Of a stretch of DNA of 64,000 nucleotides, positions 250 through 34,658 are shown one piece after another; position 1 is the stretch's first letter; each line of letters begins with the position of its first letter. The DNA comes from Muribaculaceae bacterium Isolate-037 (Harlan) (GTDB lineage: Bacteria; Bacteroidota; Bacteroidia; Bacteroidales; Muribaculaceae). The DNA is taken from assembly GCA_003762615.1 (NCBI GenBank), contig RIAZ01000008.1, positions 1-64,000 of the forward strand. Direction: 5' to 3'. The notes beneath the pieces are model-generated. The model was not told where the DNA came from. It did not search any database and saw only the letters and a list, made by a program, of their open reading frames with translations. A program made the translations under genes and the position numbers.

Positions 250-1107
250 TTATTCGTAAGGGACGAAATAGCTTGGGGTGTCATACGACACACAGCCCAT
301 ATCGCCTGCCATCCAGGCAATACGGAAGAATGCCGAACCATCATCTTTATAGAAACCGTTCTCATATCCCGTAACGTCTGTCACGAAACTTGCATTCCCT
401 TGCCAGTACCCGATATCCTGAACCCACAAATCGGGAGTGGTTCCATTTTGCAACTTAACCTTCCATGGAGTATGAGTAGCAGGAATGCGGAAAAGTGTGT
501 ACACGCCATCCTCATCTTGACCTTGCTTGTTGAGAAGCTGCATCTTCATGCTGTAGCCCTCGCCAAAAGCATCCTTGATTCGGTAAAGAGACGGATCCGT
601 TGTGCAAACCTCAAGAGCTGCTTCAGTGGATTTTGTCCCTATAAACGCCTGCTGAATATAGAACGTGCCGAGCTTCTTCTGCTCCCAGTCAAGACCAAGG
701 AAGGTGGCGCTTCCGAGCGTCTTGCCACCATTGCCGACCGCTACTGCACAGATAGTGTTGGCACCATGAATGTCGATCAGGTTGATCTCAACATTCTCCG
801 CTCCATTCACACTAATTTTCTGACCCGTGGATATCACCTTGTCGATGAATGCCGCCTCATTTTTCTCAACCTCCGCATCTACCTCTGTAGTCAGCTGATA
901 CATGTAGTAGACATCGGTAGTGGCACTGTTGGTTGCAAACCTTACAGTCACGTCATTATCCGGATTCAACGCCGGATCTGTCGGAGCGTAAGTATATACT
1001 GTCACCACCGGCTCCTTGTCCGTTCCGGGCATAGTGCCCTCATCCGCACTACATGCCCAGAGACCGAGCATCGGAAGGAAGGCTATGGCATAAATATATT
1101 TTTTCAT
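250..1107 (-). CDS. Surface lipoprotein of SusCD operon A (SusE/SGBP-like position)
   Basis: This 285-residue protein starts with a lipoprotein signal peptide ending LGLWAC (lipobox Cys19), followed by an acidic stretch that in Bacteroidales usually directs export to the cell surface. The rest is beta-rich with no motif I recognise. It is third in the operon, 27 bp after the SusD gene, the position where other systems encode SusE/SusF or surface glycan-binding proteins. The inferred role is ligand capture beside the SusC/SusD-A transporter. No enzyme accompanies it, so the ligand class cannot be read from context. A hairpin pair follows directly, making it the last gene. Function is inferred only from position and signal. 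Confidence 0.75.
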   Translation of the reverse strand: MKKYIYAIAFLPMLGLWACSADEGTMPGTDKEPVVTVYTYAPTDPALNPDNDVTVRFATNSATTDVYYMYQLTTEVDAEVEKNEAAFIDKVISTGQKISVNGAENVEINLIDIHGANTICAVAVGNGGKTLGSATFLGLDWEQKKLGTFYIQQAFIGTKSTEAALEVCTTDPSLYRIKDAFGEGYSMKMQLLNKQGQDEDGVYTLFRIPATHTPWKVKLQNGTTPDLWVQDIGYWQGNASFVTDVTGYENGFYKDDGSAFFRIAWMAGDMGCVSYDTPSYFVPYE

Positions 1108-1134: not shown

Positions 1135-2811
1135 TTACCAGATATGCACAGGTGAGTCTGCTGTCGGTGCGATAGGCGTCGGGTTGTTGATGATGCCGCC
1201 GTTGTAGTTAGACTCGGTCTGGATGATACAGAATGTCATCCAATCCGCAGGCTTGTTGGTATTCCAGCGGTAGCCCTCCACGTGGTTTGTGCCTTCGTAA
1301 TTTCTGATGATACCCTTCTGCAGACGCTTGATATCGAATGTAGCGAAACCCTCGCCCCAGAACTCGACACGGCGCTGCCACCAGATCTCGTTGCGGAACG
1401 CAGGTGTAGAGGTATTGTTGTATGCCTCATTGTGTGTGCCATAGACATATTCCGGGTCGCGAGTCTTGGCAAAATCAGTAAGGATCTGAATGCCGCGTCC
1501 CTCACTCTGCATCCCGGCAGCCTCAGCCTCGATGAGCACCATCTCCTCTACGCGCATCATAGGAAGATCCACGCAATAACCCACCTGGTTGTTCTCATGG
1601 TTGCCGTTGGCAGAACGGAACTTCAACGGCATTCCCCCAAACTGATTCTGACACAGACCGGTGCCATAGACGTTTTCCGGCACATCTGAATATGCCGACA
1701 ATGCCTCGATTATGGCATCCTTATCAGCCTCCGGATCAAGCTCATCAAGAGCAAAATCCACATAGCATTTCTTTCTTGCATCTGTCGCCGGGATAGTCTC
1801 ATAGAGATGACGGTCAATCAGGTTGGCACCGCCATAACTATTGTAATAACCCAGTCCTGTAGAACCTGACGGGAACTCACATATCATCCAGGTTCCCCAA
1901 GAGGAGTCGCCGTCGTTATAAGTGATACACGGGTCATCACTCTTGAAGCCACAAGTCAACATCCATGAATTTGTGAAATTGGCGTCGTTGAAGCCATGCA
2001 CGCGGTCAGTATACTGCTCTGCCGTCATAATCGAATAACCCTGCTGCGCGAGCTTGGCATATTTCTCAGCATTAGCCCAATCCTCCATCAGAAGATAGGT
2101 GCGCGCTTTCAGACCATACACCACCGACACGTCGGGAGTGGTCTTGTCAGGACGCGTATAGTTGGCGAGCTGAGTCTCGGCAATGTCAAGATTCTCCAGA
2201 ATATATTTAAACATCACCTCGTTTGTCACGCGGGGATTGTTGGTAGCTTCCGAAAGGGGAAGGTTCTCCGGAATGATAGGCACTGTCAATGCCTCCTTGT
2301 TGGCTGCATACGTCTCCTGGGCATACATCTGCGCGAGCTCAAGATAGAACATTCCTCTCAAGCAATGGGCAATACCTGCACCGGCGATTTTCTGCTCATC
2401 GGGATTTTCACCCGCAAGTTTCAAGACAGTGTTGCAGGAATAGATCTCCGAGTAGTAGAACGTCCAGGGTTGCTGGCAATTGAGGTAGATAGGAGCCAGA
2501 CCTACACCACACTGATACCAGTTGTTGAACCAGTTATTGTTGACAGCCACGATATCCTGACCCATGACATCGCGGATCAGATAGAATCCTGTATAGCCGA
2601 AGTCATTAGGCTGCTGATAACTGGAACCGGTGAACGTGAATTTGCCGGATATTGCCGAAGTGATGGAAGCCACAAATTTTTCGTATGCTCCCGGGGCCTC
2701 GGCTGCCTGATTTGATGTGACGGATCCTCCTTGAGGCTCAAACTCCTGCATACAAGAGGTAGGAAGCACAAGAAGCGACAACCCCGTCATATATAATGCT
2801 ATTTTTTTCAT
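1135..2811 (-). CDS. SusD/RagB-family nutrient-binding lipoprotein A
   Basis: A 558-residue SusD-family lipoprotein: signal peptide with lipobox LPTSC near residues 16-20, an N-terminal TPR-like helical part (visible in AGAGIAHCLRGMFYLELAQ and the VYGLKARTYLLMEDWANAEKYA region) and the typical C-terminal RagB region containing RRVEFWGEGFATFDIKRL. SusD proteins form the lid on the SusC barrel and bind the substrate at the outer surface. The gene is 31 bp downstream of susC-A and clearly cotranscribed. Its expression would follow the state of the inverting promoter upstream of susC-A. The substrate is unknown. Confidence 0.93.
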   Translation of the reverse strand: MKKIALYMTGLSLLVLPTSCMQEFEPQGGSVTSNQAAEAPGAYEKFVASITSAISGKFTFTGSSYQQPNDFGYTGFYLIRDVMGQDIVAVNNNWFNNWYQCGVGLAPIYLNCQQPWTFYYSEIYSCNTVLKLAGENPDEQKIAGAGIAHCLRGMFYLELAQMYAQETYAANKEALTVPIIPENLPLSEATNNPRVTNEVMFKYILENLDIAETQLANYTRPDKTTPDVSVVYGLKARTYLLMEDWANAEKYAKLAQQGYSIMTAEQYTDRVHGFNDANFTNSWMLTCGFKSDDPCITYNDGDSSWGTWMICEFPSGSTGLGYYNSYGGANLIDRHLYETIPATDARKKCYVDFALDELDPEADKDAIIEALSAYSDVPENVYGTGLCQNQFGGMPLKFRSANGNHENNQVGYCVDLPMMRVEEMVLIEAEAAGMQSEGRGIQILTDFAKTRDPEYVYGTHNEAYNNTSTPAFRNEIWWQRRVEFWGEGFATFDIKRLQKGIIRNYEGTNHVEGYRWNTNKPADWMTFCIIQTESNYNGGIINNPTPIAPTADSPVHIW

Positions 2812-2842: not shown

Positions 2843-5800
2843 TTAGAAAGTAACCTCAACACCACCCGAGATGGAACGCATCGGGGAGTATGTGCCGATA
2901 GATGTGTTGCCCGAGAAGGAATAACGCGGATCAAGACCCTTGCGAGCCGACCAGAAACAGAGGTTCTCACCGGCGCAGTAGATGCGCAGCTTCTCTATCT
3001 CATTCCAGAATTTCGGGAAAGTGAATCCTACAGTGAATGATTGGAAGTTGAGATAACCGGCATTGGTGAGATATCTGTCGCATGCCTGGTTGCCGTTGGT
3101 ATCGCCCACCTGCCAGCGCGGTATGTTGGAGGAGGTGTTGTTCGGGCTCCACGACTTGATATAATCCTTGTGGATATTGCCGCCGGCGCCTGTGCCGTCA
3201 AGGCTCGTGTTCGGGCCCATAAGAGAAGCGTAGCGGGAATCATATACCTTGCCACCGATCTGATAATCGAATGTAGCGGTGATGTCAAACCATTTTACGC
3301 GTACTGTTGTGCTGAAACCACCATATACCGTAGGCAGAGTCGATCCGCAAAGATAACGTGAAGCCTCACCGGAATTAGTGGTCACATAATCCATAGATTT
3401 CACAGTGCCCGGTTTTGACGTTGTCATCTGTCCGCCCTCCTGGATAAGGTTCGGATCATAGTAATAGAGGGATTCGCCCTGCTCGTTAAGTCCGGCAAAT
3501 GCAAGAGTCATATACTCATACATGTTGCCACCCTCGGTATACCAGTAAGGCGACTCATAGAAACCGCCGTTGACTTTCGTCTTATCAGCCGGGAGACTTA
3601 CGATCTTGGATTTGTTGTGAGAAAGGTTGGCAGAGAGCAACCATTCGTAATCCGCAGTCTTGATCGGGGAGCCTGACAGCGTCAGTTCCACGCCGGTGTT
3701 GCGTATCGTGCCCATGTTGCCGTAATAGCCGCGTGCGCCCGTAGATTCCGGCACTGAGAGCCAGAAGAGAAGGTTGCTCGTGCTCTTGTTGTAGAAGTCG
3801 ATTGATCCGTTCAAACGGTTATCAAAGAGTCCGAACTCAAGACCCACGTTGAGGTTGGTCGTTGTCTCCCAGGTCAGATCAGGATTTCCGAATCCTTTGT
3901 TGAACACCGGCGACATCTGTGTCGGGCTCGCGATCTGGAGATTATACATATCGATCCAGGCATAGCTGCTGCTGATGTTGTCGTTACCCTGCTGTCCGAT
4001 AGAGAATTTGAGCTTCAGATAATCAAGCCAGCTCTTGGTGGAGTCCATGAAGCTCTCCTTGTTGATCACCCAGGCTGCGCCGACGCTCCAGAAGTTACCC
4101 CAACGATGTGCTTTCGCGAAACGTGAGGAGGCATCGCGACGATATGATGCCGATGCATAATACTTCTCAAGGTAATTATACTGCAGGCTACCAAACCATC
4201 CCTCCACGTTGTAGCGGCTCTTGTTGGAGGTGGTGTTGATCTGACGGTTGGCAAAAGCGGCAAGCTCAAGGATCGTCGGAGAGAAACCGCCCTCGGCGTA
4301 ACCGTAGAGATACTGCTGGTCAGAACGGTAATACTCATGACCTGCAAGCACGTTGAGATAATGGTCGCCCATCTGCTTGTAGAATGTGAGGGTCTGGGTG
4401 TTGTTCGTGCGGATAGTATTGGTATTATCTTTGGCAAGTTTGCCCTTCACGTTGGAGTTCAGAGGGTTGTTCATGTTGCCGTAATAAGTATACTGGGTCA
4501 AGCCCCATGTCACATTGCTGACCACGTCGAGTTTCAGGTAATCCGTAAACTGGAATGTGGCGTTAAACGTAGCGTTCAGCTGATTACCTACGGTACGCGC
4601 CTGATCGAGTGCCTGCGCTCCGACTGCATTACCCGGGGCACTGAACGGACGGGATTTAGCATAATAGTTTGACACACCGAAATCGTAAGTGTTGTTGCCA
4701 AACTCATCCTTTATGATGTAAGGATTGCCGGCGTCGTCATAAGAACGCACGTAAAGAGGATATATCGGGGCAATGCTCGAAGTGAAATACAGGACGTTGC
4801 CTGCGCCAAGGTTTGAAGAGCTCAAATCAGAGTTGCCTACGGTGGCACTATGTGTATAGCCGATGTTGGCACCGACCTTCAACCACTTCTTCGCCTGATA
4901 ATCCGCACGGATACGTCCGGAAAAGCGGTCGAAGCTTGAAGGCTTCAGGATACCCTCATCACCCAGATAGTTGAGGCTCGCATAGAAGCTGGCGCGCTCT
5001 GTGCCGCCGTTGATGCTGAGGTTGTATTCCTGACGGAAACCTGTGCGGTAAGCCTCGTCGTTATAATTATCGGGAGTAAGGAAACGACGCTGACCGTTGA
5101 ACTCATACATACGGCCCAAGGTTGCCTTGGGATTCATCTTGCCGTCCATGCCGATAAGGGTTTCCCCCTCGGGAACGGTAAACACGTTATATACAAGATG
5201 GTTGAGCAACTGAGCGTTTGAAGCGGCATTTGCTTGAGCGGCGCTCATGCCCTGACGATAGAAGTTGTAGTTATACAACTCTGCGAAATATGCCTCATAA
5301 TATTCTCCCGGATCCGTGATATAGTCGTAATCCTGGACTGCACGCGTATTGCCACCCCATTTAGCATTGACATTGATCTCTGCTTCTCGGTTCGCGCCCT
5401 TCTTTGTTGTGATGATTATCACGCCTGATGCACCACGTGCTCCATAAAGAGCGGCAGATGCTGCATCCTTAAGCACAGATATGGATGCTATATCATTCTG
5501 TGATATGTTGCTGAGGTTGGCGCTGTAAGGAGCACCGTCGACAATCACGAGCGGCTCAGTTCCGGAATAGAGTGAGTTGATACCGCGGATCGACATGCTT
5601 CCCTGTGAGGAACCCGGAGCGCCAGTGGTGGAACGCATCTGCAGGCCGGGGACACTTCCGACAAGCGCATCAGCCACGTTGGTAGTGGTATGCTTCTGAA
5701 TATCTGACGCATTGACCACTGCTGCAGATCCTGTAAACGCCTCCTTGGTAGTTGTGCCGAATGCCACTACCATCAAATCATTAAGCGTGGATGCCGAAGT

Positions 5801-6082
5801 ATTCAGCTTTACAGTCATATTGTCGGTAAGAGGAACTGTGACAGCCTGATATCCGACGTATGATATGGTCACGTCATGCACTTTCAATGGAACCGTGATG
5901 TTAAACCTTCCATCAATGTCTGTAGCTGTGCCCTGACCTCCGCCAACAGGCATGACAGTGGCACCAATCAGAGGCTCGTTTGTCTCCGCATCAAGCACGG
6001 TGCCATGATACGTGCGAGTCTGTGCAGAAAGCCCTAAGCCCGCAAATATCACTGTCATCAAGATTAAAAACAATTTTCTCAT
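2843..6082 (-). CDS. SusC/RagA TonB-dependent outer-membrane transporter A
   Basis: A 1079-residue SusC-family transporter. It has a signal peptide (MRKLFLILMTVIFAGLGLSAQ), a carboxypeptidase-regulatory-like beta domain at about 23-105 (TYHGTVLDAETNEPLIGATV), a plug domain with SIRGINSLYSGTEPLVIVDG and VLKDAASAALYGARGASG at about 125-230, then the long beta-barrel ending in a terminal Phe (GGVEVTF). It imports a ligand handed over by SusD-A using TonB energy. The first codons and the leader are part of an 82-bp inverted repeat shared with susC-B, so transcription probably depends on DNA orientation. The Bacteroidales -7 box at 6273-6280 points at this gene, suggesting it is the expressed copy in this sequence. 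Confidence 0.96.
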   Translation of the reverse strand: MRKLFLILMTVIFAGLGLSAQTRTYHGTVLDAETNEPLIGATVMPVGGGQGTATDIDGRFNITVPLKVHDVTISYVGYQAVTVPLTDNMTVKLNTSASTLNDLMVVAFGTTTKEAFTGSAAVVNASDIQKHTTTNVADALVGSVPGLQMRSTTGAPGSSQGSMSIRGINSLYSGTEPLVIVDGAPYSANLSNISQNDIASISVLKDAASAALYGARGASGVIIITTKKGANREAEINVNAKWGGNTRAVQDYDYITDPGEYYEAYFAELYNYNFYRQGMSAAQANAASNAQLLNHLVYNVFTVPEGETLIGMDGKMNPKATLGRMYEFNGQRRFLTPDNYNDEAYRTGFRQEYNLSINGGTERASFYASLNYLGDEGILKPSSFDRFSGRIRADYQAKKWLKVGANIGYTHSATVGNSDLSSSNLGAGNVLYFTSSIAPIYPLYVRSYDDAGNPYIIKDEFGNNTYDFGVSNYYAKSRPFSAPGNAVGAQALDQARTVGNQLNATFNATFQFTDYLKLDVVSNVTWGLTQYTYYGNMNNPLNSNVKGKLAKDNTNTIRTNNTQTLTFYKQMGDHYLNVLAGHEYYRSDQQYLYGYAEGGFSPTILELAAFANRQINTTSNKSRYNVEGWFGSLQYNYLEKYYASASYRRDASSRFAKAHRWGNFWSVGAAWVINKESFMDSTKSWLDYLKLKFSIGQQGNDNISSSYAWIDMYNLQIASPTQMSPVFNKGFGNPDLTWETTTNLNVGLEFGLFDNRLNGSIDFYNKSTSNLLFWLSVPESTGARGYYGNMGTIRNTGVELTLSGSPIKTADYEWLLSANLSHNKSKIVSLPADKTKVNGGFYESPYWYTEGGNMYEYMTLAFAGLNEQGESLYYYDPNLIQEGGQMTTSKPGTVKSMDYVTTNSGEASRYLCGSTLPTVYGGFSTTVRVKWFDITATFDYQIGGKVYDSRYASLMGPNTSLDGTGAGGNIHKDYIKSWSPNNTSSNIPRWQVGDTNGNQACDRYLTNAGYLNFQSFTVGFTFPKFWNEIEKLRIYCAGENLCFWSARKGLDPRYSFSGNTSIGTYSPMRSISGGVEVTF

Positions 6083-6127
6083 ACGTAATAATTTTGAGAT
6101 GAAGTTATATGTTGTTTTGATGTATTC
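6046..6127. repeat. Inverted repeat IR-A at the 5' end of susC-A (predicted recombination site)
   Basis: 82 bp that match 9464-9545 in inverted orientation with a single mismatch. The repeat covers 45 bp of untranslated leader, the ATG and the first 12 codons of susC. Identity stops abruptly on both sides even though the encoded proteins stay similar, so protein conservation alone does not explain it. Part of it (55 bp) recurs at 15050-15104. Predicted crossover substrate for the tyrosine recombinase at 8101-9348. Confidence 0.85.
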
Positions 6128-6272
6128 AATAGGTGAAATATTCTTACCGTGTCTCTGCTCTTATTTTGTCGACAGGTAGATGGTAGGTAATCAGCATGAA
6201 TGTTTAATCCTGTTCGATTACAATTTCTCTCTTGAAAGTGGTGTATCGGGAATGAGATTTACATTCATTTTG

Positions 6273-6280
6273 CAAATTTA
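6273..6280 (-). promoter_or_regulatory. Predicted promoter inside the invertible segment, reading into susC-A
   Basis: On the minus strand TAAATTTG matches the Bacteroidales -7 consensus TAnnTTTG. A TTTA lies 22 bp upstream, weaker than the consensus TTTG. The surrounding A/T-rich block resembles the promoter of susC-C at 14806-14839 (same 22-bp spacing and an AAAAATTTTG stretch before the box). It gives a leader of about 180-190 nt. Because it lies between IR-A and IR-B, inversion would turn it toward susC-B. Confidence 0.55.
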
Positions 6281-6433
6281 GACAAAATTTTTAATTATAT
6301 ATTAAAAATGTTTAAAAAAATTGCAATAATCGCATTTTTTTCAGATTAATGATTTAGTGTCATAATTACACTAATTGCTTGCAATAACCTTTGAGGTGTC
6401 CACGCAGACGTCAAGTTTATTTCATTTTGATAT

Positions 6434-6556
6434 CTATATGTCGATGATTTGTATAAAAACATAGGGACGACCAATCACTTTGTAAAATAAGCTATACTTG
6501 GGATTGATGATTACTCCATCTTCGGGCTTCCGTATTTCATTCAAAATCTTAGACAT
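6434..6556 (-). CDS. Possible 40-residue small protein within the invertible segment
   Basis: A small frame begins MSKILNEIRKPEDGVIIN and ends in a hydrophobic stretch before TAG. It has a mixed amphipathic composition and no homologue I recognise. No clear ribosome binding site is visible, as is common in Bacteroidales. It lies upstream of the susC-A promoter on the same strand. It may be a real small regulator of the switch, the remnant of a gene broken by the IS110 insertion, or chance. Confidence 0.25.
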   Translation of the reverse strand: MSKILNEIRKPEDGVIINPKYSLFYKVIGRPYVFIQIIDI

Positions 6557-6788
6557 TTTATAGTATAGTTTTAATATGGTCGGTTACTTGTCAGATAAGA
6601 ATTATTCTCAATATGGTGAGAATTTGACGCTTGTATTGCGTTAATCATTGCAATCCCGTAGTTTTTTTGACCTGTCGCTGTCACGAAGTACTCTTTAAGT
6701 ACGAACTATATTAAAATCCAAATAAAATGAGGCAAAAATTACATCCACCTTAGATTATTTGAGAATAGTCATGCCTCCGTCCGCTCTT

Positions 6789-6827
6789 GGGGGCGGTTTA
6801 GGCCGCCCCCGCCGCTGGGGCATCCCC
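6789..6827. terminator. GC-rich hairpins after the IS110 transposase gene
   Basis: An 8-bp perfect stem (6789-6796 with 6803-6810, GGGGGCGG/CCGCCCCC) is followed by a shorter GGGG-CAT-CCCC hairpin at 6817-6827. Their G+C content stands out sharply from the A/T-rich surroundings. They may end transposase transcription or mark the element's right-end structure; no U-tract follows on the minus strand. Confidence 0.4.
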
Positions 6828-6851
6828 TCGCCAGAAGGAGAGAGGAAGTGT

Positions 6852-7829
6852 TCAGACGGTGGTATCAGGTTTCGTAGAGACGAAACCGTCGATATATGAA
6901 TTATTGGATGTCACAACAGCAAAAGCCTGTCTGACGAGTTTGTTTGCTACGGCAATCATGGCAACCTTGCCGGATTTTCCATTGCCTCGTAATCGTTGGT
7001 AGCATTCCTTGCACGCCTTGTTGTGCTGACTTGCTGACCATGCCGCCACATAAAGCATTGAACGCAGAGTCTCATCACCGTTACGGTTGATATGTCCCCG
7101 GATGTTTATGCTCGTGCCGGACTGCTCTATTGTTGGACAGATACCGATAAAGCGGGACAACTGCTTGGCATTGTCGAAGTAGGTAAAGCCTCCGGTGGCT
7201 ATAATCAGCGCTGTGGCAAGTGTGACCCCGATACCCTTTATTGAGGTAAGGAGTTTCAGCTGCCTGTCAAACACCTCGGTCACGACCGCCTCCATTTCCT
7301 GCTGCATGTACTTGATCTGCTTCTCAAGGAACGTTATGGTCTGTTTAAGAGAATTGACACACTTCTTGTCCTTAACCGGCAGAGGTTCAAGCGATGAGAG
7401 TAGATTCTTTGTCGCTGTCAGTTGCTTCTGGAGCTGACGCAGGACTGTTTTCTTCTGCTTCAGAATCATTATCTGTTCTGATGGGAACTTATAGGGTTCA
7501 GGCTTGAACCTCTCCCCGAAATCGGCAATGAGACAAGCGTCTTTGGAATCCGTCTTGGTTACGGACATCATCACGCGGGCATAGTTCTTAATCTTCTTCG
7601 GATTGATGAGGCTTGCCCGGATGCCCGACTTGTCAAGAAGATAAAGAAGGAGGAAACAGTAGTTGCCTGTCGCCTCCATCACGCAGTGGTGGATGGCAGG
7701 GTCAAGCTTCGAGATGAACCTGCGGATGCCTTTAGCATCATTTGGGAAGGTCTCGGTACGGTAGCTTTTCCCGTGAAGGAAGGCTGCTACAAAAGTCGCT
7801 TTGCTGATGTCGATGCCTATGTATGTCAT
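6852..7829 (-). CDS. IS110-family transposase (DEDD RuvC-like plus serine domain)
   Basis: The 325-residue protein has the two IS110 domains. The N-terminal RuvC-like DEDD domain shows Asp7 in YIGIDISK, Glu52 in CVMEATGNY and Asp94/Asp97 in TKTDSKDACLIADF. A coiled-coil linker spans about 120-185. The C-terminal transposase domain contains the helix-hairpin-helix-like SIKGIGVTLATALI (196-209) and the SGTSINIRGHINRNG motif with the conserved Ser at about 238-240. IS110 transposases are RNA-guided recombinases that work with a bridge RNA encoded in the element, and a suitable structured leader lies just upstream. Length is normal and the frame intact, so the element may be active. Confidence 0.93.
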   Translation of the reverse strand: MTYIGIDISKATFVAAFLHGKSYRTETFPNDAKGIRRFISKLDPAIHHCVMEATGNYCFLLLYLLDKSGIRASLINPKKIKNYARVMMSVTKTDSKDACLIADFGERFKPEPYKFPSEQIMILKQKKTVLRQLQKQLTATKNLLSSLEPLPVKDKKCVNSLKQTITFLEKQIKYMQQEMEAVVTEVFDRQLKLLTSIKGIGVTLATALIIATGGFTYFDNAKQLSRFIGICPTIEQSGTSINIRGHINRNGDETLRSMLYVAAWSASQHNKACKECYQRLRGNGKSGKVAMIAVANKLVRQAFAVVTSNNSYIDGFVSTKPDTTV

Positions 7830-7849
7830 ATTATCAAATCTTTTGTCAG

Positions 7850-8000
7850 GAACTACATCTTTTGCACTCTCGTCGCAAACACGGGGTCGGTTTCACCGCC
7901 CCAACGAACTATCCAGTCTTTAGATGTAAAAGCATGGGGACCTATCGTACTTAATGGAGTCAACCAACATGACATCTGCCTTATTCCATGCTTGAATATC
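7850..8000 (-). ncRNA. Candidate IS110 bridge RNA
   Basis: The leader of the transposase gene, read on the minus strand, can fold into two large stem-loops in tandem. The first pairs 7986-7993 with 7930-7937 (8 bp) around a 48-nt loop. The second pairs 7922-7928 with 7854-7860 (7 bp) around a 61-nt loop that contains an inner GC hairpin (7883-7890 with 7896-7902, one bulge) and a further short stem. Two looped modules upstream of the recombinase gene are the hallmark of IS110-type bridge RNAs, whose loops pair with target and donor DNA. Folding was done by eye; loop-to-flank complementarity was not established. Confidence 0.45.
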
Positions 8001-8038
8001 CTGAAATTTGAAGTTGAAATTATTCAAAAACATTTAAC

Positions 8039-8052
8039 CGTACAAATGTACG
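8039..8052. promoter_or_regulatory. Palindrome just upstream of the recombinase gene
   Basis: CGTACAAATGTACG is a 5-bp-arm palindrome 49 bp before the recombinase start. Similar GTAC-arm palindromes occur at 6688-6702 and 9396-9410, so one lies on each side of the recombinase gene. It is a candidate operator or recombinase-binding site. Confidence 0.3.
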
Positions 8053-8100
8053 ACATTTCAGTTGTAGACGGTAAATAATCTAAAAAAATTTCAATTATCT

Positions 8101-9348
8101 ATGACAGTATTACAGCGAAGAACAAAACAAAATCCCAAGCTCTGTCTTTTACAATTGAAAGATGGCAGGGCAAGTCTATATCTGGAATATTACCTCGGAC
8201 GTTCCGAGACGGCAGTCCTTGATGAAGACGGAAGGCAGGTGGTATATGCCACCGGGGTCATGAAAGGGAAACCGAAATTCCATATAAAGCATATAAGAAG
8301 AAAGGAGAGGCTCAACCTGTACATACGCACTCATCCGCGCAGCTCTCAGGATAGGATGCATAATAAGGATACGCTTGCACTTGCCGAAAAGATACGCTTT
8401 GAACGCGAGCAGCAATTCCTGGAAGATAGGGAGGGATACCGGCTGAAAAGGGATAAGGAAACTAATTTCATATCTTATTTCAAGGGTAAATGTGAGTCGG
8501 AACGATTCTCTTATAATGTACGCAAGTCTGTGACCCAGACCTATAACCGTTTCATCCGTTTTCTCAAAGAGTCTCCGCGCTACAATATGTATGATGAATA
8601 TTTGCCAATGGAGACACTGACTTCTCACCTTGTACTCGGATTCTCAGAGTTTCTGCGTGCCAACGGTAAAGGGGGCGGTCCCAACAAGATGTATCATCAT
8701 TTCAAGCGTATTGTGCTTGATGCGATGGAGGATAATCTATTGCGTTCAAATCCTTGCAGGGGTATAGCCATCAGATACGACAGCAGGCAACTCATGAAGG
8801 AGATACTGTCTCCCGAAGAGATAAGGTGCCTCATTGCCACCCGATATGAGGGGGAGCATCGTGAGGTGCAACGCGCATTTGTGTTCAGTCTGTTCACGGG
8901 AGTCAGATGGTGTGACGTCAAACTCATGTCATACGGTAATGTTGACTTTACGACGCGCACATTACGCTTCAATCAGAAGAAAGTGGAGGGACGAAGCGCA
9001 CATAGCGCAGTGGTTTTCCCTCTCAGTGATGACCTCATCTCGCTTATCGGCACTCCGTCACTACCTGACAATCCGGATGAATTGATTTTCAATCTGCCAA
9101 ACTATTCCACTTGCAACAAGCATCTCAAACGATGGATTAGCAAAGCCGGCATCCACAAATTAATCTCATGGCATTGTGCCCGACATTCTTTTGCCGTCAA
9201 CGTGCTCGACAAAGGCGCGAATATCAAGACGGTCTCTACCCTTATGGGACATTGCAGCATCTCCACAACCGAGAAGTATCTTCATGTGCTCGATAAGCAG
9301 AAAATAGAGGCTGTCGGCAGTCTTGGGCCAATCGGTTTTGCGATGTAG
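8101..9348 (+). CDS. Tyrosine site-specific recombinase, predicted SusC/SusD invertase
   Basis: A 415-residue Bacteroidales-type tyrosine recombinase. Residues 1-115 are an arm-binding-like N-terminal domain, about 125-225 the SAM-like core-binding domain, and 235-400 the catalytic domain. All active-site residues are visible: Arg269 in TGVRWCDVKLM, Lys293/294 in the beta-hairpin, His358 and Arg361 in HCARHSFA, His384 in LMGHC and the nucleophile Tyr393 in EKYLHV. It cuts and religates DNA through a 3'-phosphotyrosine. The gene lies between two divergent susC genes whose starts are inverted repeats, with the nearer repeat only 115 bp downstream. Recombinases of this class flip SusC/SusD promoters in Bacteroides. 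No conjugation or phage genes accompany it, so an element integrase is less likely. Confidence 0.93.
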   Translation: MTVLQRRTKQNPKLCLLQLKDGRASLYLEYYLGRSETAVLDEDGRQVVYATGVMKGKPKFHIKHIRRKERLNLYIRTHPRSSQDRMHNKDTLALAEKIRFEREQQFLEDREGYRLKRDKETNFISYFKGKCESERFSYNVRKSVTQTYNRFIRFLKESPRYNMYDEYLPMETLTSHLVLGFSEFLRANGKGGGPNKMYHHFKRIVLDAMEDNLLRSNPCRGIAIRYDSRQLMKEILSPEEIRCLIATRYEGEHREVQRAFVFSLFTGVRWCDVKLMSYGNVDFTTRTLRFNQKKVEGRSAHSAVVFPLSDDLISLIGTPSLPDNPDELIFNLPNYSTCNKHLKRWISKAGIHKLISWHCARHSFAVNVLDKGANIKTVSTLMGHCSISTTEKYLHVLDKQKIEAVGSLGPIGFAM

Positions 9349-9395
9349 ACTTGACCGTCTCGTGTAATTGCCATACCGCTTTCCATGCATACATC

Positions 9396-9410
9396 GTACT
9401 CATTTAGTAC
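9396..9410. promoter_or_regulatory. Palindrome between recombinase gene and IR-B
   Basis: GTACT and AGTAC arms flank a 5-nt centre. A palindrome of the same length with identical arms is at 6688-6702, near the other end of the invertible segment. It may bind a protein that organises the two crossover sites, or may be chance. Confidence 0.3.
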
Positions 9411-9463
9411 ACATCTCGCTTATCTGGCGCATACTATATGTTTGATTATAAGATAAATCTGAA

Positions 9464-9545
9464 GAATACATCAAAACAACATATAACTTCATCTCAAAAT
9501 TATTACGTATGAGAAAATTGTTTTTAATCCTGATGACAGTGATAT
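9464..9545. repeat. Inverted repeat IR-B at the 5' end of susC-B (predicted recombination site)
   Basis: Partner of 6046-6127 with one mismatch, in opposite orientation 3.4 kb away. It covers the last 45 bp of leader, the ATG at 9509 and the first 12 codons. The upstream 115 bp have no convincing promoter: TATGTTTG at 9437-9444 fits the -7 consensus, but no TTTG lies at the right distance. Susc-B is therefore predicted silent in this orientation. Confidence 0.85.
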
Positions 9546-12500
9546 CATGCAGCCTGAGCCTTCTGGCGCAGACCCGCACGTATCACGGAACAGTGCTTGA
9601 CGCGGCCAATAACGAACCGCTGATCGGAGCAACAATCTCACCAATCGGCGGAGGACAAGGCACTGCCGCAGACATTGATGGGAAATTTGTCCTGACCGTA
9701 CCTTCAAAAGTGACCCAAGCAAAAATCACTTATGTCGGCTACAAGGATCAAGTTGTCACCCTTCAAAACAACATGACGATTTACCTTACATCCTCATCGG
9801 CGGATCTCGATGACCTTGTGGTGGTGGCATACGGCACTGCCAACAAGGAATCTCTGACCGGATCTGTTGCCGTTGTCGGCTCAAAAGAGATTGAAGATCG
9901 CCCCGTCACTTCTGTCACCTCTGCCCTTGAAGGAAATGCTCCCGGCGTACAGGTGACAAGTGCGACAACCCAACCCGGTCAGGCACCGTCTATCCGCGTG
10001 CGTGGATTCTCTTCTGTAAACGGCAACAATGATGCCCTAATTGTTGTTGATGGGTCTGAATATGTAGGTGATATCGCGGCTATCAATCCTCAGGACATTG
10101 AATCAATGTCTGTCCTTAAAGACGCCGCCTCCTGTGCCCTGTACGGCAACCGTGGAGCAAACGGCGTGGTCCTTATAACCACCAAGAAAGCAAAGAATTT
10201 AGGAAAAGTCGATGTGACTCTTCAAGTGCGTCAGGGCATGTATGAGAGGGCTCTCCCGATGTATGACCGAATGGATGCTAACGAATGGATGGAAACCACA
10301 TTCAATGCTCAGGTGAATGGAAAAATCACAAATGAGAAAGTGAGCCGACAGGATGCAATCAACTTCTGGAGAGACAACTTCATCCCGACGTATGCAAAGC
10401 TCAATATTTATGATGCCGACGAGAAGAGCGTGTTTGACGCCAACGGAAAACTCGCGGCCTCCATCCTACCAGGATATACCGGCGAGGATATGGATTGGTG
10501 GAAAGGGGTGTCGCGCACCGGCTACCGTCAGGAATATTCCGTAAGCATGGCGGGCGCAACAGAGAAATTCAACGCTTTCGCATCTGCCGGATACCTGAAA
10601 GAGAACGGCTATGTGCTCCTCACTGACTACGAACGCTTCAGTGGTCGTGTAAACCTCAACGCCAACCCGGTAAAATTCCTCAAACTCGGTCTTAACCTGA
10701 GCGCAGCACAGCAGGAGATGCAGAGAAGTCCGGTGGATCCCGATGGACTCGGCTACACCAACAACCCCTTCTCCATGACTCAGAACAAGGCTCCGATTTA
10801 TCCTTATTATCTGCATGATGAAAAAGGCAATGTGATGTATGACCCCGAGACCGGACTCCCAATCTGGAACCAGGAAAATTACAACACTGACGGCAACATT
10901 GTATGGAATATACGCGAAGACCGCAGAAACTACAGCGTCACCCAGCTTGACGCGTCAATGTTCGGCACAATCGTGCTCCCTTACGGATTTGACATAACCG
11001 TAAAGGGGACAATGTTCCGCGACAAGACAAATGAGATGCAATACAACAACAACAAGATCGGTTCGCAAGCCAACATCGGCTCCCTAAGCCATGGATTCTA
11101 CCGCACGAAGACACACATGTTCCAGCAGATGCTGAACTGGTCGCATGATTACGGCGCACACCATGTCGACGTGCTCCTTGACCATGAGAACTATGCTTAT
11201 TCCTACGAGCAGAACTATATCCGCAAAAGCGGTCAGCAGCTTGATGGACTTATCCACATGGGTAACTTTGCCGAAATGAAGGATATGACGGCCTACTACA
11301 CCGAATATAAACTTGAGTCTTATCTCGGTCGCGCCCGCTACAACTACGAACAGAAATACTTCATCGAGGCCTCCATCAGACGAGACGGAACTTCTCGCTT
11401 TGATAAGGATAACCGTTGGGGCTCTTTCTGGAGCACAGGCGCAAGCTGGGCAATCTCCAAAGAGAAGTTTATGCAAGACATAAATTGGATCAATTTCTTG
11501 AAACTACGCGCTGCATACGGCTCGGTAGGCAACGACGCCTCTGCCGGTCATTACGCTTCATGGGGTATCTATAACTTCGGTTGGGCGATCGGCGGCTCAA
11601 TCAACAACCTTGTGCCCGCACAGCTCCCACCATCAAACCTCAGATGGGAATCCACAAAGACGTTTGACCTTGCCCTTGAAGGCTCTCTCTTCGACGACCG
11701 TTTCAACTTCTCTATCGGCTACTACAACAAACGCAATACCGACCTTCTCTTCTGGCGTTCTTCCGCTCCATCTTCAGGCAACCTGGGCAACACCGCCACA
11801 ACACCGACGACTCTCCAGAATATCGGCACGATGCAGAACATCGGCTGGGAGCTTGCTTTTGGCGTGGACATAATACGCAATCAGAATATCAAATGGACAT
11901 TCAACGTCGATGCCTCATTCCTGAAAAACAAAATCATCAAGCTTCCCGACAATCAGGATATACCGGGCGACGCCCTATTCATTGGGAAGAGCCTGTATGA
12001 ACAGTACACATACGAATGGGCCGGCATCGACCGCACAAACGGACGTTCGCTATACGTGATTGACCCTGAATCTCCCGATTTCTACTCCTATAATGACCAG
12101 AACCAGAAAATATACAATGGCAGTGAATACGCATCTCGTGTTCAGAACGCGGCTGCAAATGGAGCACTTGTGGAAATCGACGGGAAATATTATACGTACA
12201 ACACCGCATACGCATCACGCAAGATCATCGGCACGTCTCTTCCGACCGTATATGGCTCATTCGGCACAAATGTGGCATGGAAAGGCATCAGCCTCGGAAT
12301 GCTCTTCTCCTACAGCCTTGGCGGAAAGACTTACGACGGCAACTATGCGGGATTGACAGGCGTGGGATCCTCCGGAGCATCTGCCCTGCATAAGGATCTT
12401 CTGAATGCATGGAGCCAAAAACCCGATGGCATAGCCGACCACACTGTCGGAAGTTCCAACCTGACATACATCGGTGCCGACGGTCAGCCTGTTTCCACAT

Positions 12501-12841
12501 CTGTTGAAAAGGTATTCATCGGAGCCGGCAATATAATTGACCCGAACGGCATACCGCAACTCAACACATCCTACAACTCTTACAGCAATAGTGCCAGCAG
12601 CAGATACATCGTCAACAATAACTACCTGATATTCAAAAATCTCAACCTCTCATACGATCTTCCCGACTCATGGGTAAGGACAATGAAGCTTCAGAATCTG
12701 AATATCGGAGTCTCTGTCGACAACGTATTTATCGCCACAAAACGAAAAGGTATAAATCCCCAGTATAACTTCTCCGGAGGTCAGGGACAATACTTCGTGC
12801 CTTCAAGAGTATATTCATTCCAGCTCACAGCTAAATTCTAA
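9509..12841 (+). CDS. SusC/RagA TonB-dependent outer-membrane transporter B
   Basis: A 1110-residue SusC homologue with signal peptide, carboxypeptidase-regulatory-like domain (TYHGTVLDAANNEPLIGATI), plug with SIRVRGFSSVNGNNDALIVV and VLKDAASCALYGNRGANG, and a barrel ending in AKF. The start lies within the IR-B repeat, so its first 12 codons match susC-A almost perfectly at DNA level, after which synonymous positions diverge. The barrel differs strongly from A and C, so the ligand is probably different. It is followed 21 bp later by susD-B, and there is no third lipoprotein gene. Transcription probably needs inversion of the promoter segment, or read-through from the recombinase gene. Confidence 0.95.
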   Translation: MRKLFLILMTVISCSLSLLAQTRTYHGTVLDAANNEPLIGATISPIGGGQGTAADIDGKFVLTVPSKVTQAKITYVGYKDQVVTLQNNMTIYLTSSSADLDDLVVVAYGTANKESLTGSVAVVGSKEIEDRPVTSVTSALEGNAPGVQVTSATTQPGQAPSIRVRGFSSVNGNNDALIVVDGSEYVGDIAAINPQDIESMSVLKDAASCALYGNRGANGVVLITTKKAKNLGKVDVTLQVRQGMYERALPMYDRMDANEWMETTFNAQVNGKITNEKVSRQDAINFWRDNFIPTYAKLNIYDADEKSVFDANGKLAASILPGYTGEDMDWWKGVSRTGYRQEYSVSMAGATEKFNAFASAGYLKENGYVLLTDYERFSGRVNLNANPVKFLKLGLNLSAAQQEMQRSPVDPDGLGYTNNPFSMTQNKAPIYPYYLHDEKGNVMYDPETGLPIWNQENYNTDGNIVWNIREDRRNYSVTQLDASMFGTIVLPYGFDITVKGTMFRDKTNEMQYNNNKIGSQANIGSLSHGFYRTKTHMFQQMLNWSHDYGAHHVDVLLDHENYAYSYEQNYIRKSGQQLDGLIHMGNFAEMKDMTAYYTEYKLESYLGRARYNYEQKYFIEASIRRDGTSRFDKDNRWGSFWSTGASWAISKEKFMQDINWINFLKLRAAYGSVGNDASAGHYASWGIYNFGWAIGGSINNLVPAQLPPSNLRWESTKTFDLALEGSLFDDRFNFSIGYYNKRNTDLLFWRSSAPSSGNLGNTATTPTTLQNIGTMQNIGWELAFGVDIIRNQNIKWTFNVDASFLKNKIIKLPDNQDIPGDALFIGKSLYEQYTYEWAGIDRTNGRSLYVIDPESPDFYSYNDQNQKIYNGSEYASRVQNAAANGALVEIDGKYYTYNTAYASRKIIGTSLPTVYGSFGTNVAWKGISLGMLFSYSLGGKTYDGNYAGLTGVGSSGASALHKDLLNAWSQKPDGIADHTVGSSNLTYIGADGQPVSTSVEKVFIGAGNIIDPNGIPQLNTSYNSYSNSASSRYIVNNNYLIFKNLNLSYDLPDSWVRTMKLQNLNIGVSVDNVFIATKRKGINPQYNFSGGQGQYFVPSRVYSFQLTAKF

Positions 12842-12862
12842 AAACGACAAAACATTACTGTT

Positions 12863-14575
12863 ATGAACAGCAAATTTTATAAAGGGTTGGCGGCAGTTGC
12901 CATTGCAGCGGGATTCGCATCCTGTTCTGACGACTATCTGCAGACAGAACCCATCACAAGCATCTCCGACGCAACAGCCGTAGCCACAACGGAAGCTGCA
13001 CAGATGACTGTATATGGCATCTCCCGTATCATGAACACCCAAAACGATCAGGGACGTTCGCACACCGGCGAGAACTCTTGCCTGCAATGGATCGGCGAAG
13101 GATTGGGTCCGGATAATGTATCCTTCATGAACATGAATGAGATGGGACGCTCGTGGAGCCGCTGGGAATCCCTAAATCTTCCGAGTTCATCCCTTTGCAA
13201 GACTATGTGGGGATACTGCTACATGATAATATCACGCGCAAACACGGTTCTTGCCACAATAGACGCCGCCGACGGCACTCAGGCGGAAAAAGACTGGATC
13301 AAGGCACAATGTCTCACGTTCAGGGCCCACGGCTATCTGCATGCGCTGCAGTGGTTCGGACCGCGTTGGGTTGACAGCAACAACGGCAATGCATACGCGG
13401 TGGTGCTCCGCACAGAGCCGGGTACAGGTCCCGCTCCCACCGGCACTATGAATGAAGTGCTGGACCTGATTTATTCCGACCTCGACGAGGCCCTGAAGCT
13501 ATTCCAAAGCTCCGGAAAATCGCGCAAATACTGGTTTGAACCGGATATGGACATCGCTTACGGCACGTATGCCCGGGCTGCCCTCCTGAAAAACGACTGG
13601 AACAAGGCAAAAGAGATGGCTCACAATGCTCGTAAGGATTACCCTGTCATGACGAATGACGAGTATATGTCAGGACTGATCAATCCGACAAGCGACTATA
13701 TGTGGACAAATCCCGACAACGATATCTATTATAGTGCTTTCGGATGCTGGTTCTCCTGCAACGGGTCATATCCGGCAAACTGGTCGCAGGGTCTTGCCAT
13801 CAATATGGACCTGTATCGTCTCCTTGATGAGAGAGACATCCGCAGAAAATGTTTCTTCACGCCTGACAAAGCTGCCGAAATTGCCAAAATGGATGGATAC
13901 GGGGATGTGGCTTCCCTTACTGAAGCCGATTTCTGGAATCCCAACAATGTGGTTGCCGGCACAATGGACTGTGCGGCAGGAGGTCTTGGCAACCTGGCGA
14001 AGGGATTCGTATGGTATGCCATGGCAAACAATCCGGTGAGCAACATCGTCACCAGCTATCCTTTCTGCCGTGTCATTGAAGGCGTAGCACAGACCACTCC
14101 CTCCGTGATGCAGCTCGGTGCTGCCGTCAAGATGTGGAGCATCGGTGTGAACGGCACTTACGGTGACTCTTATTTCCCTTGGATGCGTGCCACCGAGATG
14201 CTTCTCACCGAAGCCGAGGCAGCATATATGGCAGGTGATGAACCCACTGCAAAATCTGTAATCGAAGAATTGAACTCAATCCGTATACCCGGATATGAGG
14301 CTCCATCGGGTGATGCCCTTCTTGAAGATATCCGTCTGTCTCGACGTATAGAACTCTGGGGCGAGGGCCATTGCTGGACTGATTTCAAACGTTGGAATCT
14401 TCCGATGGAACGCCGGGTTTGGAAAGAGAACGACGTGACATCAGGAAACACGCCTGCCAACTTTGCAATCCGCCAGGAAACATCCGCATACAACGGATGG
14501 CGCCTCATGATCCCGCGTTCAGAATCCGATTTCAATCCTGCATTTGACAGGAGCCTCCTGAACTACAAGGATTAA
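12863..14575 (+). CDS. SusD/RagB-family nutrient-binding lipoprotein B
   Basis: A 570-residue SusD-family lipoprotein with lipobox AGFASC and the acidic SDD export signal after Cys21. The helical TPR-like part includes IAYGTYARAALLKNDWNKAKEMA, and the C-terminal RagB motif SRRIELWGEGHCWTDFKRW is intact. It pairs with SusC-B to form the lidded importer. It is the last gene of operon B, followed by a strong hairpin at 14645-14675. Its sequence differs greatly from SusD-A and SusD-C, which suggests a different ligand. No enzyme gene reveals the substrate. Confidence 0.93.
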   Translation: MNSKFYKGLAAVAIAAGFASCSDDYLQTEPITSISDATAVATTEAAQMTVYGISRIMNTQNDQGRSHTGENSCLQWIGEGLGPDNVSFMNMNEMGRSWSRWESLNLPSSSLCKTMWGYCYMIISRANTVLATIDAADGTQAEKDWIKAQCLTFRAHGYLHALQWFGPRWVDSNNGNAYAVVLRTEPGTGPAPTGTMNEVLDLIYSDLDEALKLFQSSGKSRKYWFEPDMDIAYGTYARAALLKNDWNKAKEMAHNARKDYPVMTNDEYMSGLINPTSDYMWTNPDNDIYYSAFGCWFSCNGSYPANWSQGLAINMDLYRLLDERDIRRKCFFTPDKAAEIAKMDGYGDVASLTEADFWNPNNVVAGTMDCAAGGLGNLAKGFVWYAMANNPVSNIVTSYPFCRVIEGVAQTTPSVMQLGAAVKMWSIGVNGTYGDSYFPWMRATEMLLTEAEAAYMAGDEPTAKSVIEELNSIRIPGYEAPSGDALLEDIRLSRRIELWGEGHCWTDFKRWNLPMERRVWKENDVTSGNTPANFAIRQETSAYNGWRLMIPRSESDFNPAFDRSLLNYKD

Positions 14576-14675: not shown

Positions 14676-15049
14676 TTTTCAATATAGATAAACCCTCACC
14701 CCAATCATCCCATTTTTATTCGCCCTGTTATATTTTGCATAAAAATCGGCTGTTCTTTTAATAATATTATGCAATTTTGTTAAAAATTTAATTTTTTTAA
14801 TGCATTTTGCCTTAAAATAAAAAATTTTGTTTAACTTTGCAATCCGTTTTCCAACCTCTCCTCCTGATGGAAATCCGGCGGACACTTTACCGTTCACTTC
14901 AACCAGACAAAACGAAATTATATAAACATACCTTAATATCTCTCCATGAATGACATTATGACGGCAATAACCCCATTTTGTCATTCATAATTTTTTTACG
15001 GACAGACAAACAAAACAATGTATCATTAGACTACATACACCAAACAATA
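14676..15049. other. A/T-rich promoter and leader region of operon C
   Basis: No gene is recognisable here. The region contains long A and T runs, the predicted operon C promoter at 14806-14839 and a leader of about 230 nt. The last bases before 15050 only partly resemble the upstream part of IR-A/IR-B. Confidence 0.5.
14806..14839 (+). promoter_or_regulatory. Predicted promoter of susCD operon C
   Basis: TTTG at 14806-14809 and TAACTTTG at 14832-14839 are separated by 22 bp, close to the Bacteroidales -33/-7 arrangement. The flanking A/T block resembles the susC-A promoter, consistent with promoter segments having been exchanged between these loci. Confidence 0.6.
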
Positions 15050-15104
15050 ATAACTTCATCTCAAAATTATTACGTATGAGAAAATTGTTTTTAATCTTGA
15101 TGAC
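15050..15104. repeat. Third copy of the susC start repeat (direct to IR-B, inverted to IR-A)
   Basis: 55 bp identical to part of IR-A, covering 26 bp of leader, the ATG and nine and a half codons of susC-C. It is in the same orientation as IR-B, 5.6 kb away. Recombination with IR-A would invert about 9 kb. Recombination with IR-B would delete operon B as a circle. Confidence 0.75.
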
Positions 15105-18107: not shown

Positions 18108-19646
18108 ATGAAAAAGTTAATATATAGTTTTATTCTTACTGGAACGCTTTTCACTTCATGCAGCATGAATGAAGAGCCTGCCGGAAAACTGAATGATGAG
18201 ACCGCCATTCAGACCACGGCAGATGCCACAAAATTCCGCAATGGCATCTACAGCAACATCCGTTCGGTGTCAAACGGCACATTCATCTATAGTCAGGAGA
18301 TGCAGGCCGACATGTTCGTTGGCACTCAGATCAATGGTAATCGTCTCGGTCCGTTCAGCATCAGTTCTTTTACCTCTTCTGATAATGATCTGGAAGATTT
18401 ATGGGAATACCCTTATAAGTATATCGCCAACGTAAATTATTTTCTTCCAAAACTGGAGGTTCTTATCAACAGGGAGGGAATTGATGCAAACACCAAACTG
18501 CTACTCGAGCGCTACCGCGGTGAGGCAAAATGGGCGCGTGCATACTATTATTATTACCTGACAGACACATTCTGTCAGTCATACACAAACGTAGAGCCCA
18601 CCACTCCGGCTTCAGGAATGCCTTTGGAGACAGTCTATCATCCGTCCAGCGAATACTCTACATATCCCGGTCGTTCATCTTTGGCAGAGACTTTTAATCT
18701 CATTGAAAAAGACCTTGCCGATGCCTACAACGATCTGGAGGCTTATGAGAAATCTTCCGCCAAGGATGCACAGGCAAACCTAAGTGCCAATGCCCCTTAT
18801 TTGAGTACATTTACTGTCCTTGCTCTTCAGGCCCGTATTGCCTTGCTGAAAGGTGATAACGCCACAGCCATTGCAAAGGCTGAGAAAGTCATCAATGAAG
18901 GTAGCTATACACTCACTGACCGAGATCTTTATCCAGCGATATGGACAAATGATGAAGGATCTGAACTTATCTTTGTACCTTATGGTGACCAAGCCCAATC
19001 TTCTGCAGTAGCTGCTATCGGTGAGGCTTGGATCAACTCATCCACTGATAAGGCAGACTATGTTGCTACTCAGAATGCTCTCGGAATGTATGATTCTGAA
19101 AAAGACATACGTTATGAGTCGTTCTTTGAACCTCGCGCACTCTCTGTAAACGGTGCAAGCGTTGTAGCTCCCTGTTTTGTGAAATATCCGGGTAACCCTC
19201 TTCTCAATACAGGTTCTACAAATGCATTGAAGAATCTGCCCAAGCCATTCCGTCTTAGCGAAATGTATCTTATCATAGCTGAGGCTTCAGCTTCTACTGA
19301 TGCAAATAAGGCAAACACTGCACTCAACACACTGCGAGCTGCCCGTATCGCAGATTATGAGGAGCAGACTTATTCCGGACAGAACCTCGTGAACCAAGTG
19401 CGTGAAGAGCGCACCAAGGAACTCATCGGCGAAGGCTTCCGTATAAGCGACCTGCGCCGCTGGAATCTCGGTTTCAGCCGTTCTACCGCTTATGAGGATA
19501 TTTATGAGGACGTGCCCTCAATACTTATCCCCGCAAGCATGAACGTGACTTACGAACCCGGTTACTATCGTCTGATTCTTCCAATTCCCACAGGTGAGAT
19601 GGAGACCAATCCCCAGCTCGAAGGTCAGCAGAATCCGGGCTACTAA
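18108..19646 (+). CDS. SusD/RagB-family nutrient-binding lipoprotein C
   Basis: A 512-residue SusD-family lipoprotein with lipobox TLFTSC at about residues 13-18. The helical core contains RYRGEAKWARAYYYYYLTDTF, an SRLA/TPR-type segment (TVLALQARIALLKGDNATAIAKAEK) and the C-terminal RagB part VREERTKELIGEGFRISDLRRWN. It is the binding partner of SusC-C. It belongs to a shorter subgroup than SusD-A and SusD-B, so the three pairs were probably recruited separately and only their susC starts were made alike. Confidence 0.93.
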   Translation: MKKLIYSFILTGTLFTSCSMNEEPAGKLNDETAIQTTADATKFRNGIYSNIRSVSNGTFIYSQEMQADMFVGTQINGNRLGPFSISSFTSSDNDLEDLWEYPYKYIANVNYFLPKLEVLINREGIDANTKLLLERYRGEAKWARAYYYYYLTDTFCQSYTNVEPTTPASGMPLETVYHPSSEYSTYPGRSSLAETFNLIEKDLADAYNDLEAYEKSSAKDAQANLSANAPYLSTFTVLALQARIALLKGDNATAIAKAEKVINEGSYTLTDRDLYPAIWTNDEGSELIFVPYGDQAQSSAVAAIGEAWINSSTDKADYVATQNALGMYDSEKDIRYESFFEPRALSVNGASVVAPCFVKYPGNPLLNTGSTNALKNLPKPFRLSEMYLIIAEASASTDANKANTALNTLRAARIADYEEQTYSGQNLVNQVREERTKELIGEGFRISDLRRWNLGFSRSTAYEDIYEDVPSILIPASMNVTYEPGYYRLILPIPTGEMETNPQLEGQQNPGY

Positions 19647-28990: not shown

Positions 28991-29045
28991 TATTCCGATT
29001 GAATTTTTATAGTCAGTTCCTTTTGAAGTATTCATACTTCCAGTC

Positions 29046-34447: not shown

Positions 34448-34569
34448 AATTATTAGGTAATGGTTAATTTCAAGGTTTGCATATCCGCTTTCCAACGCCG
34501 ATACCGCACATTATATATCATGCGATTATTGCGCGGCGGGAGGGAGCGGCAACTACAATATCGTATATG

Positions 34570-34599: not shown

Positions 34600-34658
34600 A
34601 TCATCATACGTGTTTTAAAGGGTGCAGTTAGGATGAGTGAGGGGCATGAATTGTTAAA

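Follow-up and report, generated by a model that had tools for sequence, protein, structure and literature searches.

We analyzed a stretch of 64,000 nucleotides from Muribaculaceae bacterium Isolate-037 (Harlan) (contig RIAZ01000008.1, positions 1 to 64,000), called here the window; the assembly comprises 4.9 Mb in 102 contigs and is 97.9% complete. Near the left end of the window two SusC/SusD operons, A and B, point away from each other, and the segment between them is bounded by inverted repeats and holds a tyrosine recombinase gene. An earlier note, made from the letters alone, had predicted that this segment inverts and decides which operon is expressed. The features that bear on this prediction are the following.

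1135..2811 (-): susD-A
2843..6082 (-): susC-A, TIGR04056 above cut-off
6046..6127 (-): inverted-repeat arm A, reaching from the leader of susC-A over its ATG into its first codons
6083..6113 (-): position in arm A equivalent to the dyad site seen in relatives (two arms around CATCTCA, adjoining the ATG on its upstream side); weak dyad, 7/12
6258..6342 (-): promoter block facing susC-A, with a -7 box TAAATTTG at 6280-6273
~6695..8057 (BLASTN ends) (-): IS110 family insertion sequence, transposase at 6852-7829 (-)
8101..9348 (+): tyrosine recombinase, 415 aa, akin to mobile-element integrases, PF00589 E 1.6e-16
9464..9545 (+): inverted-repeat arm B, reaching from the leader of susC-B over its ATG into its first codons
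9478..9508 (+): position in arm B matching the dyad site of relatives, 7/12
9509..12841 (+): susC-B, TIGR04056 above cut-off
12863..14575 (+): susD-B
14790..14842 (+): promoter-like block upstream of susC-C, with TAACTTTG at -244
15035..15110 (+): third, more diverged repeat copy at the susC-C start, direct relative to arm B
15045..15075 (+): position in copy C matching the dyad site of relatives, 8/12, p 0.065
15076..18087 (+): susC-C

Start-site repeats

The 82-bp inverted repeats described in the earlier note were confirmed. BLASTN aligned 9464-9545 (+) with 6127-6046 (-) at 98.78% identity over 82 nt (81 of 82 bases, one mismatch), and each arm contains an ATG, that of susC-A at 6082 (-) and that of susC-B at 9509 (+). 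Inverted repeats over at least two susC start codons, by which SusC/SusD inversion shufflons are recognized, are present. With up to three mismatches allowed, a 52-nt part of the repeat was found at two places in the 64-kb window, both of them exact matches, whereas 100 dinucleotide shuffles gave none. Extended without gaps, the arms kept 75% complementarity over 283 nt, so beyond the 82 bp they resemble each other as two related gene starts do.

The earlier inventory of two arms stood, and a third copy at the start of susC-C (15035-15110) had been overlooked. This copy matched at 93% over 72 nt (BLASTN) and has 26 nt of leader in common with A and B. The A, B, and C copies were the only strong repeat matches in the assembly; the next one (E 0.015) covered a coding start only. 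A further site on contig C80 (E 0.19), directly after a BlaR1-like gene and without a susC, was taken as chance; the same contig also has, at 5465-6763 of locus L042, an ORF of 432 aa in which GSAPVIDN is repeated in tandem. An Rfam match to KCNQ1OT1_1 at 5901-6228 was rejected (20.1 bits, gathering score 70).

From arm A inward, the segment consists of 130 nt of leader, the promoter block (6258-6342), about 0.35 kb, IS110 (6695-8057), 43 nt, the recombinase gene (8101-9348, +), and 115 nt up to arm B. By arithmetic, the inner segment minus IS110 measures about 2.0 kb, near the 1.9 kb that separate a pair of start-site repeats in a relative (G217, L103).

Promoter blocks

The search for promoters revealed a block on the A side of the segment; upstream of susC-B there was nothing but TATGTTTG at -72. 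On sequence evidence, a predicted promoter inside the segment that points to one gene, as in a shufflon, is present. The A block was similar to the upstream DNA of susC-C in the window, of G431_A, and of G022_B (0 of 300 shuffles in each case), and more weakly to that of G432_B (p 0.013).

Start-site copies were chosen for their extended leader: 23 for leader length and promoter boxes, 24 for leader identity, and 22 for dyads. Copies of G013, G010, G015, G299, G303, G338, G435, and G438, the weaker hits in the genus, further G431 and G022 copies, and G248_A and G248_X (upstream DNA missing) were omitted. The consensus TAnnTTTG, quoted in PMC4747536, was found at -100 to -330 in 7 of 14 copies (window A, window C, G022_B, G217_a, G416_A, G431_A, and G432_B), against none of the nine that directly follow a recombinase 3' end. 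Among B-class operons the distal box was present in G022 and G432 and absent in the window, G217, G356, G416, and G437; identity to the window susC-B ranged from 54 to 84% in this class, so orthology is certain for the nearest only. With the promoter block on the A side and none on the B side, the assembled state reads as operon A on and operon B off.

Resident recombinase and IS110

The gene between the arms was correctly called an intact tyrosine recombinase, since 8101-9348 is a complete 415-aa ORF with PF00589 at E 1.6e-16. The catalytic motif ARH...GH...Y is kept in comparison with IntI4 and XerA, and, judged by eye, a VR occupies the place of the first Arg, so that the Phage_integrase domain has its R, H-x-x-R, G-H, and Y. 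The closest relatives found were 72% identical and came from three genomes of other genera in the family; they are integrase-like and have the same domains (dN 0.19; dS not computable, i.e., saturated). No homologue passing E 1e-165 was found outside our own genome among the 111 genomes of the genus. No relaxase or accessory genes stand beside the recombinase, and the segment contains only IS110 and the recombinase, so it does not qualify as a mobilizable element. As for the repeat being the attachment site of this integrase family, a search of ten integrase loci gave no significant match to the core repeat (best E 0.36), and five elements bear, at the end nearest the integrase, short repeats that do not look like it; the idea was rejected.

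In describing the segment, the earlier note had the recombinase right and overlooked IS110 at 6695-8057. This element has a DEDD transposase with Transposase_20, several copies, and fixed ends. Elsewhere in the genome there are at least one full copy at 100% identity, which indicates a recent arrival, and nine pieces of 127-132 nt. The left edge of the insertion carries AGTAC and the right edge TCAGTTGT; the two occur together in a motif upstream of a homologous integrase (L111), and the motifs upstream of L112 and L113 are slightly unlike that of L111. These halves hint that the recombinase was in place before IS110.

IS110 copies at contig ends are a source of assembly breaks in this genome. 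Mis-assembly across IS110 was a real worry, with at least six of the nine end pieces at contig ends, and we judged it unlikely. The motif halves at both edges speak against it, weakly (about 13 nt, partly overlapping the IS end), as does a B operon (-) facing an A-class gene (+) across start-site repeats in G416, G432, and G272 (two contigs in the last).

The repeat and its recombinases in relatives

The repeat was found at E<=1e-11 in 20 of the 111 genomes of the genus, our own included. A pattern scan of species genomes, which perhaps did not cover our own, returned 10 stretches with the repeat pattern: four Muribaculaceae metagenome-assembled genomes (MAGs), one Muribaculaceae isolate, four uncultured Porphyromonadaceae MAGs, and one 'Bacteroides sp.' MAG. 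In the relatives the repeat is located at susC starts, and six of them have inverted pairs on one contig. The pairs are divergent, as in the window, in G022, G217, G416, and G432, and convergent around two operons in G356 and G248. Many contigs end at the repeat (G022 C136, G248 C12 and C67, G257 C9 and C23, G272 C71, G438 C192 and C71), as is to be expected where repeats break an assembly. RuvX-like or TRIC-like genes adjoin the locus in several relatives; the RuvX-TRIC stretch of our own genome (C22, L142, 1836-18134) has other genes and neither susC nor the repeat.

The slots assembled in relatives mostly hold another tyrosine recombinase of 456-465 aa, called here the relatives' enzyme, and in one case a serine recombinase. 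One gene for the relatives' enzyme lies at 15320-16717 of L103 (G217). Arm-DNA-bind_5 was detected in three of the four members scanned, and one member matched an integrase PHROG. The enzyme has Ala at the usual place of the first Arg (AFQGLAPVDL); IntDOT likewise lacks the first Arg. Its alignment with the window enzyme is weak (26% over 94 aa, E 0.027). At E<=1e-30 it was encoded in 7 of 397 genomes of the family, one of them partial (G324); the six genomes with a full-length copy all carry the repeat, and G324 does not. G437 is an additional genome with this enzyme. The 3' end of its gene lies beside a start-site repeat in seven of the eight genes seen, G272 being the exception. In our own genome there was no match to one member (E<=0.001) nor to the profile (E<=1e-6). 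The same profile search found it in 6 of 12 genomes, with none in G248, G350, G299, G303, and G338.

In G432 the slot is taken by a 209-aa serine recombinase (PF00239, E 8.3e-33), encoded at 6052-6681 of L198 (G432:C24). It lies within the stretch 5413-6898, between two divergent susC genes whose start-site repeats match at 95% over 73 nt. The B operon beside it is the nearest relative of the window operon B (susC 84% and susD 83% identical).

Two further loci have a related look. L040 (G014:C223) holds another kind of divergent susC pair, at 6342-9554 (-) and 11231-14476 (+), with a 387-aa tyrosine recombinase between them (9841-11004, -); the first ~107 aligned bases of this pair differ at about three places by eye, followed by 78% identity over 2.6 kb. 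L043, on C47 of our own genome, may be a further switch: at 8542-8827 and 9027-10067, repeats (56-nt direct, 98%; 66-nt inverted, 83%) lie beside a tyrosine recombinase match.

Proposed crossover site and leader identity

Perfect or 11/12 dyads with a spacer of 6-7 nt stand at the ATG in G022, G356, and G248. In the G022 leader an arm of 12 nt is followed by the spacer CATCTCA and then by its own exact reverse complement, which runs up to the ATG; the dyads of G356_X and G248_1 are 11/12 with the spacer ATCCCC. Tyrosine recombinases usually act on sites of this size. In the shuffling test, 5 of 22 copies had p < 0.01, one had p 0.027, and the other 16 were not distinct from shuffles. The crossover point would probably lie at the equivalent position in the arms of the window.

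Leader identity averaged 0.88 within genomes (20 pairs) and 0.78 between genomes (256 pairs), and none of 5000 label shuffles, which do not correct for relatedness among genomes, gave as large a difference. In contrast, each gene pairs with its own class across genomes: the window susC-A is 78% identical to that of G272 A and susC-B 84% to that of G432 B, and susC-A and susC-B are 34% identical to each other within the window. The identical leader extends over 45 nt between window A and B and 43 nt in G432, compared with 6-34 nt in 15 pairs from genomes holding the relatives' enzyme. Plain gene duplication as the sole source of the repeats is disfavored, as leader identity tracks the genome and not the gene class.

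A proposed inversion switch and its alternatives

From the observed repeats, one-sided promoter block, and comparative pattern we propose, with modest confidence, that the locus is a switch that works by site-specific DNA inversion at the start codons of its SusC/SusD operons, most likely through the resident recombinase. Within the segment, a single promoter would point outward at the A end, and the recombinase gene lies at the B end. As assembled, operon A would be transcribed and B silent, and a flip would bring the promoter to B. The proteins would remain intact through the flip, because the repeat spans the leader, the ATG, and the first codons. The third copy at susC-C may permit a larger A-C inversion, or the loss of operon B through B-C recombination. 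Inversion probably still occurs. The predicted flipping of the segment was strengthened by the promoter block on the A side only, the inverted pairs in relatives, and the variable box of B-class operons; the choice between A and B alone was not, since a third site at susC-C makes this more than a two-state switch.

Several observations weigh against this proposal. This species was seen in one assembled orientation, and the orientation evidence is a comparison between species. The dyad of window A and B (7/12, p ~0.3) is no better than shuffled sequence, and the same holds for most other copies. On the promoter side, 7 of the 14 copies away from a recombinase 3' end lack the distal box (G022_2, G217_b, G356_A, G416_X, G437_X, G272_A, and G248_1; G356_A and G272_A are near contig ends), and G356_X, a recombinase-side copy, has some similarity to the promoter block (p 0.053). 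A nearer TAnnTTTG exists at window B (-72) and likewise at G437_B, and susC-C has its own promoter-like block. By chance, TAnnTTTG appears in 3-24% of shuffled upstream regions, which makes single boxes weak. As for the enzyme, a susC match (E<=1e-8) was found at none of 30 loci of its homologues, many of them cut by contig ends; IS110 sits 43 bp upstream of the gene and parts it from its upstream region; and no TAnnTTTG occurs upstream of it on its strand within the segment. The earlier note had taken the resident recombinase as the invertase, and in that form the claim was not supported, because the protein differs from the slot enzyme of relatives, its homologues lie away from susC, and IS110 has inserted close upstream.

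It could be, and this is the alternative that survives best although we hold it to be unlikely, that the switch is real and the resident recombinase is a passenger integrase, another enzyme (lost, unassembled, or acting in trans) catalyzing or having catalyzed the inversion. A different enzyme does lie beside the repeat in relatives, homologues of the window enzyme are found elsewhere, with Mob_Pre-type genes at 7 of the 30 loci, and our own genome has 18 recombinase matches in all (E<=0.001) from which another enzyme might come. Moreover, in two genomes that carry the repeat, G248 and G350, the relatives' enzyme was not detected, so a genome may lack it without a replacement having taken place; in G248, contigs break off at the repeat. 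The resident gene, however, occupies the same slot in the same direction as the relatives' enzyme and is the only site-specific recombinase in the segment, which is why we consider it the likeliest to perform the inversion. The serine recombinase of G432 indicates that the slot accepts new enzymes, and the identical A/B leader is longer here than with the relatives' enzyme.

A second alternative, which we consider improbable, is a relic: a switch that functioned until IS110 landed and that is now fixed with A on. The recent arrival of IS110, with its identical full copy and nine end pieces, and its place between the recombinase and the former upstream region agree with this, but IS110 could itself provide transcription, the recombinase ORF is intact, and the arms are near identical. 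It is very improbable that the repeats are no more than the 5' ends of duplicated susC genes, kept similar by selection or occasional homologous recombination with no programmed flipping: signal-peptide DNA is indeed common to many susC genes of the genus, and part of the leader also occurs at some copies that appear to be single, but leader identity follows the genome, a recombinase fills the slot in several genomes, promoters are one-sided, and relatives have dyad sites.

Under the inversion switch that we favor, the unusual part is an apparent turnover of invertases within a conserved switch. We suggest tentatively that an ancestral promoter-inversion switch has a replaceable invertase slot, filled, from species to species within the genus, by the tyrosine recombinase without the usual first Arg, by a captured mobile-element integrase (in the window), or by a serine recombinase; the longer identical leader with both newcomers looks as if the site had moved with the enzyme.

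Neighboring genes

Beyond the two operons the window holds the following.

250..1107 (-): ORF downstream of susD-A, no Pfam match
18108..19646 (+): susD-C
20716..23268 (+): peptidase of the C10 family bearing a Spi inhibitor domain and a Por secretion tail, further downstream within the C cluster

The contig starts at window base 1, just beyond the third gene of operon A. A likely polysaccharide-use locus lies at 26738-42323, with GH3, GH2, a hybrid two-component regulator, and one more TonB-dependent protein with a plug domain.

Relation to known systems

Inversion of SusC/SusD genes has been described in Bacteroides fragilis. In 'region EE', an intergenic shufflon, inverted repeats cover the start codons of ragA/susC homologues, and inversion places one or another SusC/SusD-type pair under a promoter (PMC5729914). 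Our locus resembles it in its start-codon repeats, its promoter, and its alternative SusC/SusD pairs; it differs from what that text describes in that the promoter and the recombinase gene are both within the small segment and the enzyme varies by species, a comparison of described layout. That a tyrosine-type invertase switches such genes, as the earlier note stated, is borne out by Tsr0667, which carries out site-specific, shufflon-type inversions of B. fragilis SusC/SusD clusters according to PMC4747536 and PMC11852207. Tsr0667 is alike in being a site-specific invertase of SusC/SusD genes; as described there it acts on many distant regions, whereas here our genome and its relatives have enzymes at the locus (the likeness is one of role). 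The integrases of mobilizable elements with a Mob_Pre relaxase in the same bacterial family are the nearest in sequence: the window enzyme shares its domains and 72% identity with three of them, and halves of the upstream motif of one stand at the IS110 edges. Unlike those elements, the window segment has no relaxase or replication gene and lies between inverted susC starts. The switch would belong with the SusC/SusD inversions of B. fragilis, and what is different is the enzyme: the slot is kept and its occupant changes. Among the papers listed in searches of a limited library, none dealt with inversion in Muribaculaceae or at SusC, or with the replacement of an invertase.

In other Bacteroidales, gut inflammation has been associated with altered orientation of DNA near SusC/SusD loci (PMC10939037). 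Homologues of the C-cluster C10 peptidase are present in the clusters of several relatives, a hint that the switch may concern the use of peptides or glycoproteins. Switching of SusC/SusD has been known mainly from B. fragilis, and our results now place this design in an apparent Muribaculaceae genus. The comparison shows a start-codon site and suggests that a switch can outlive its enzyme. If this is true, the identity of the invertase would be a poor guide to switched loci, and these genomes would offer a natural test of a new recombinase taking over an old site.

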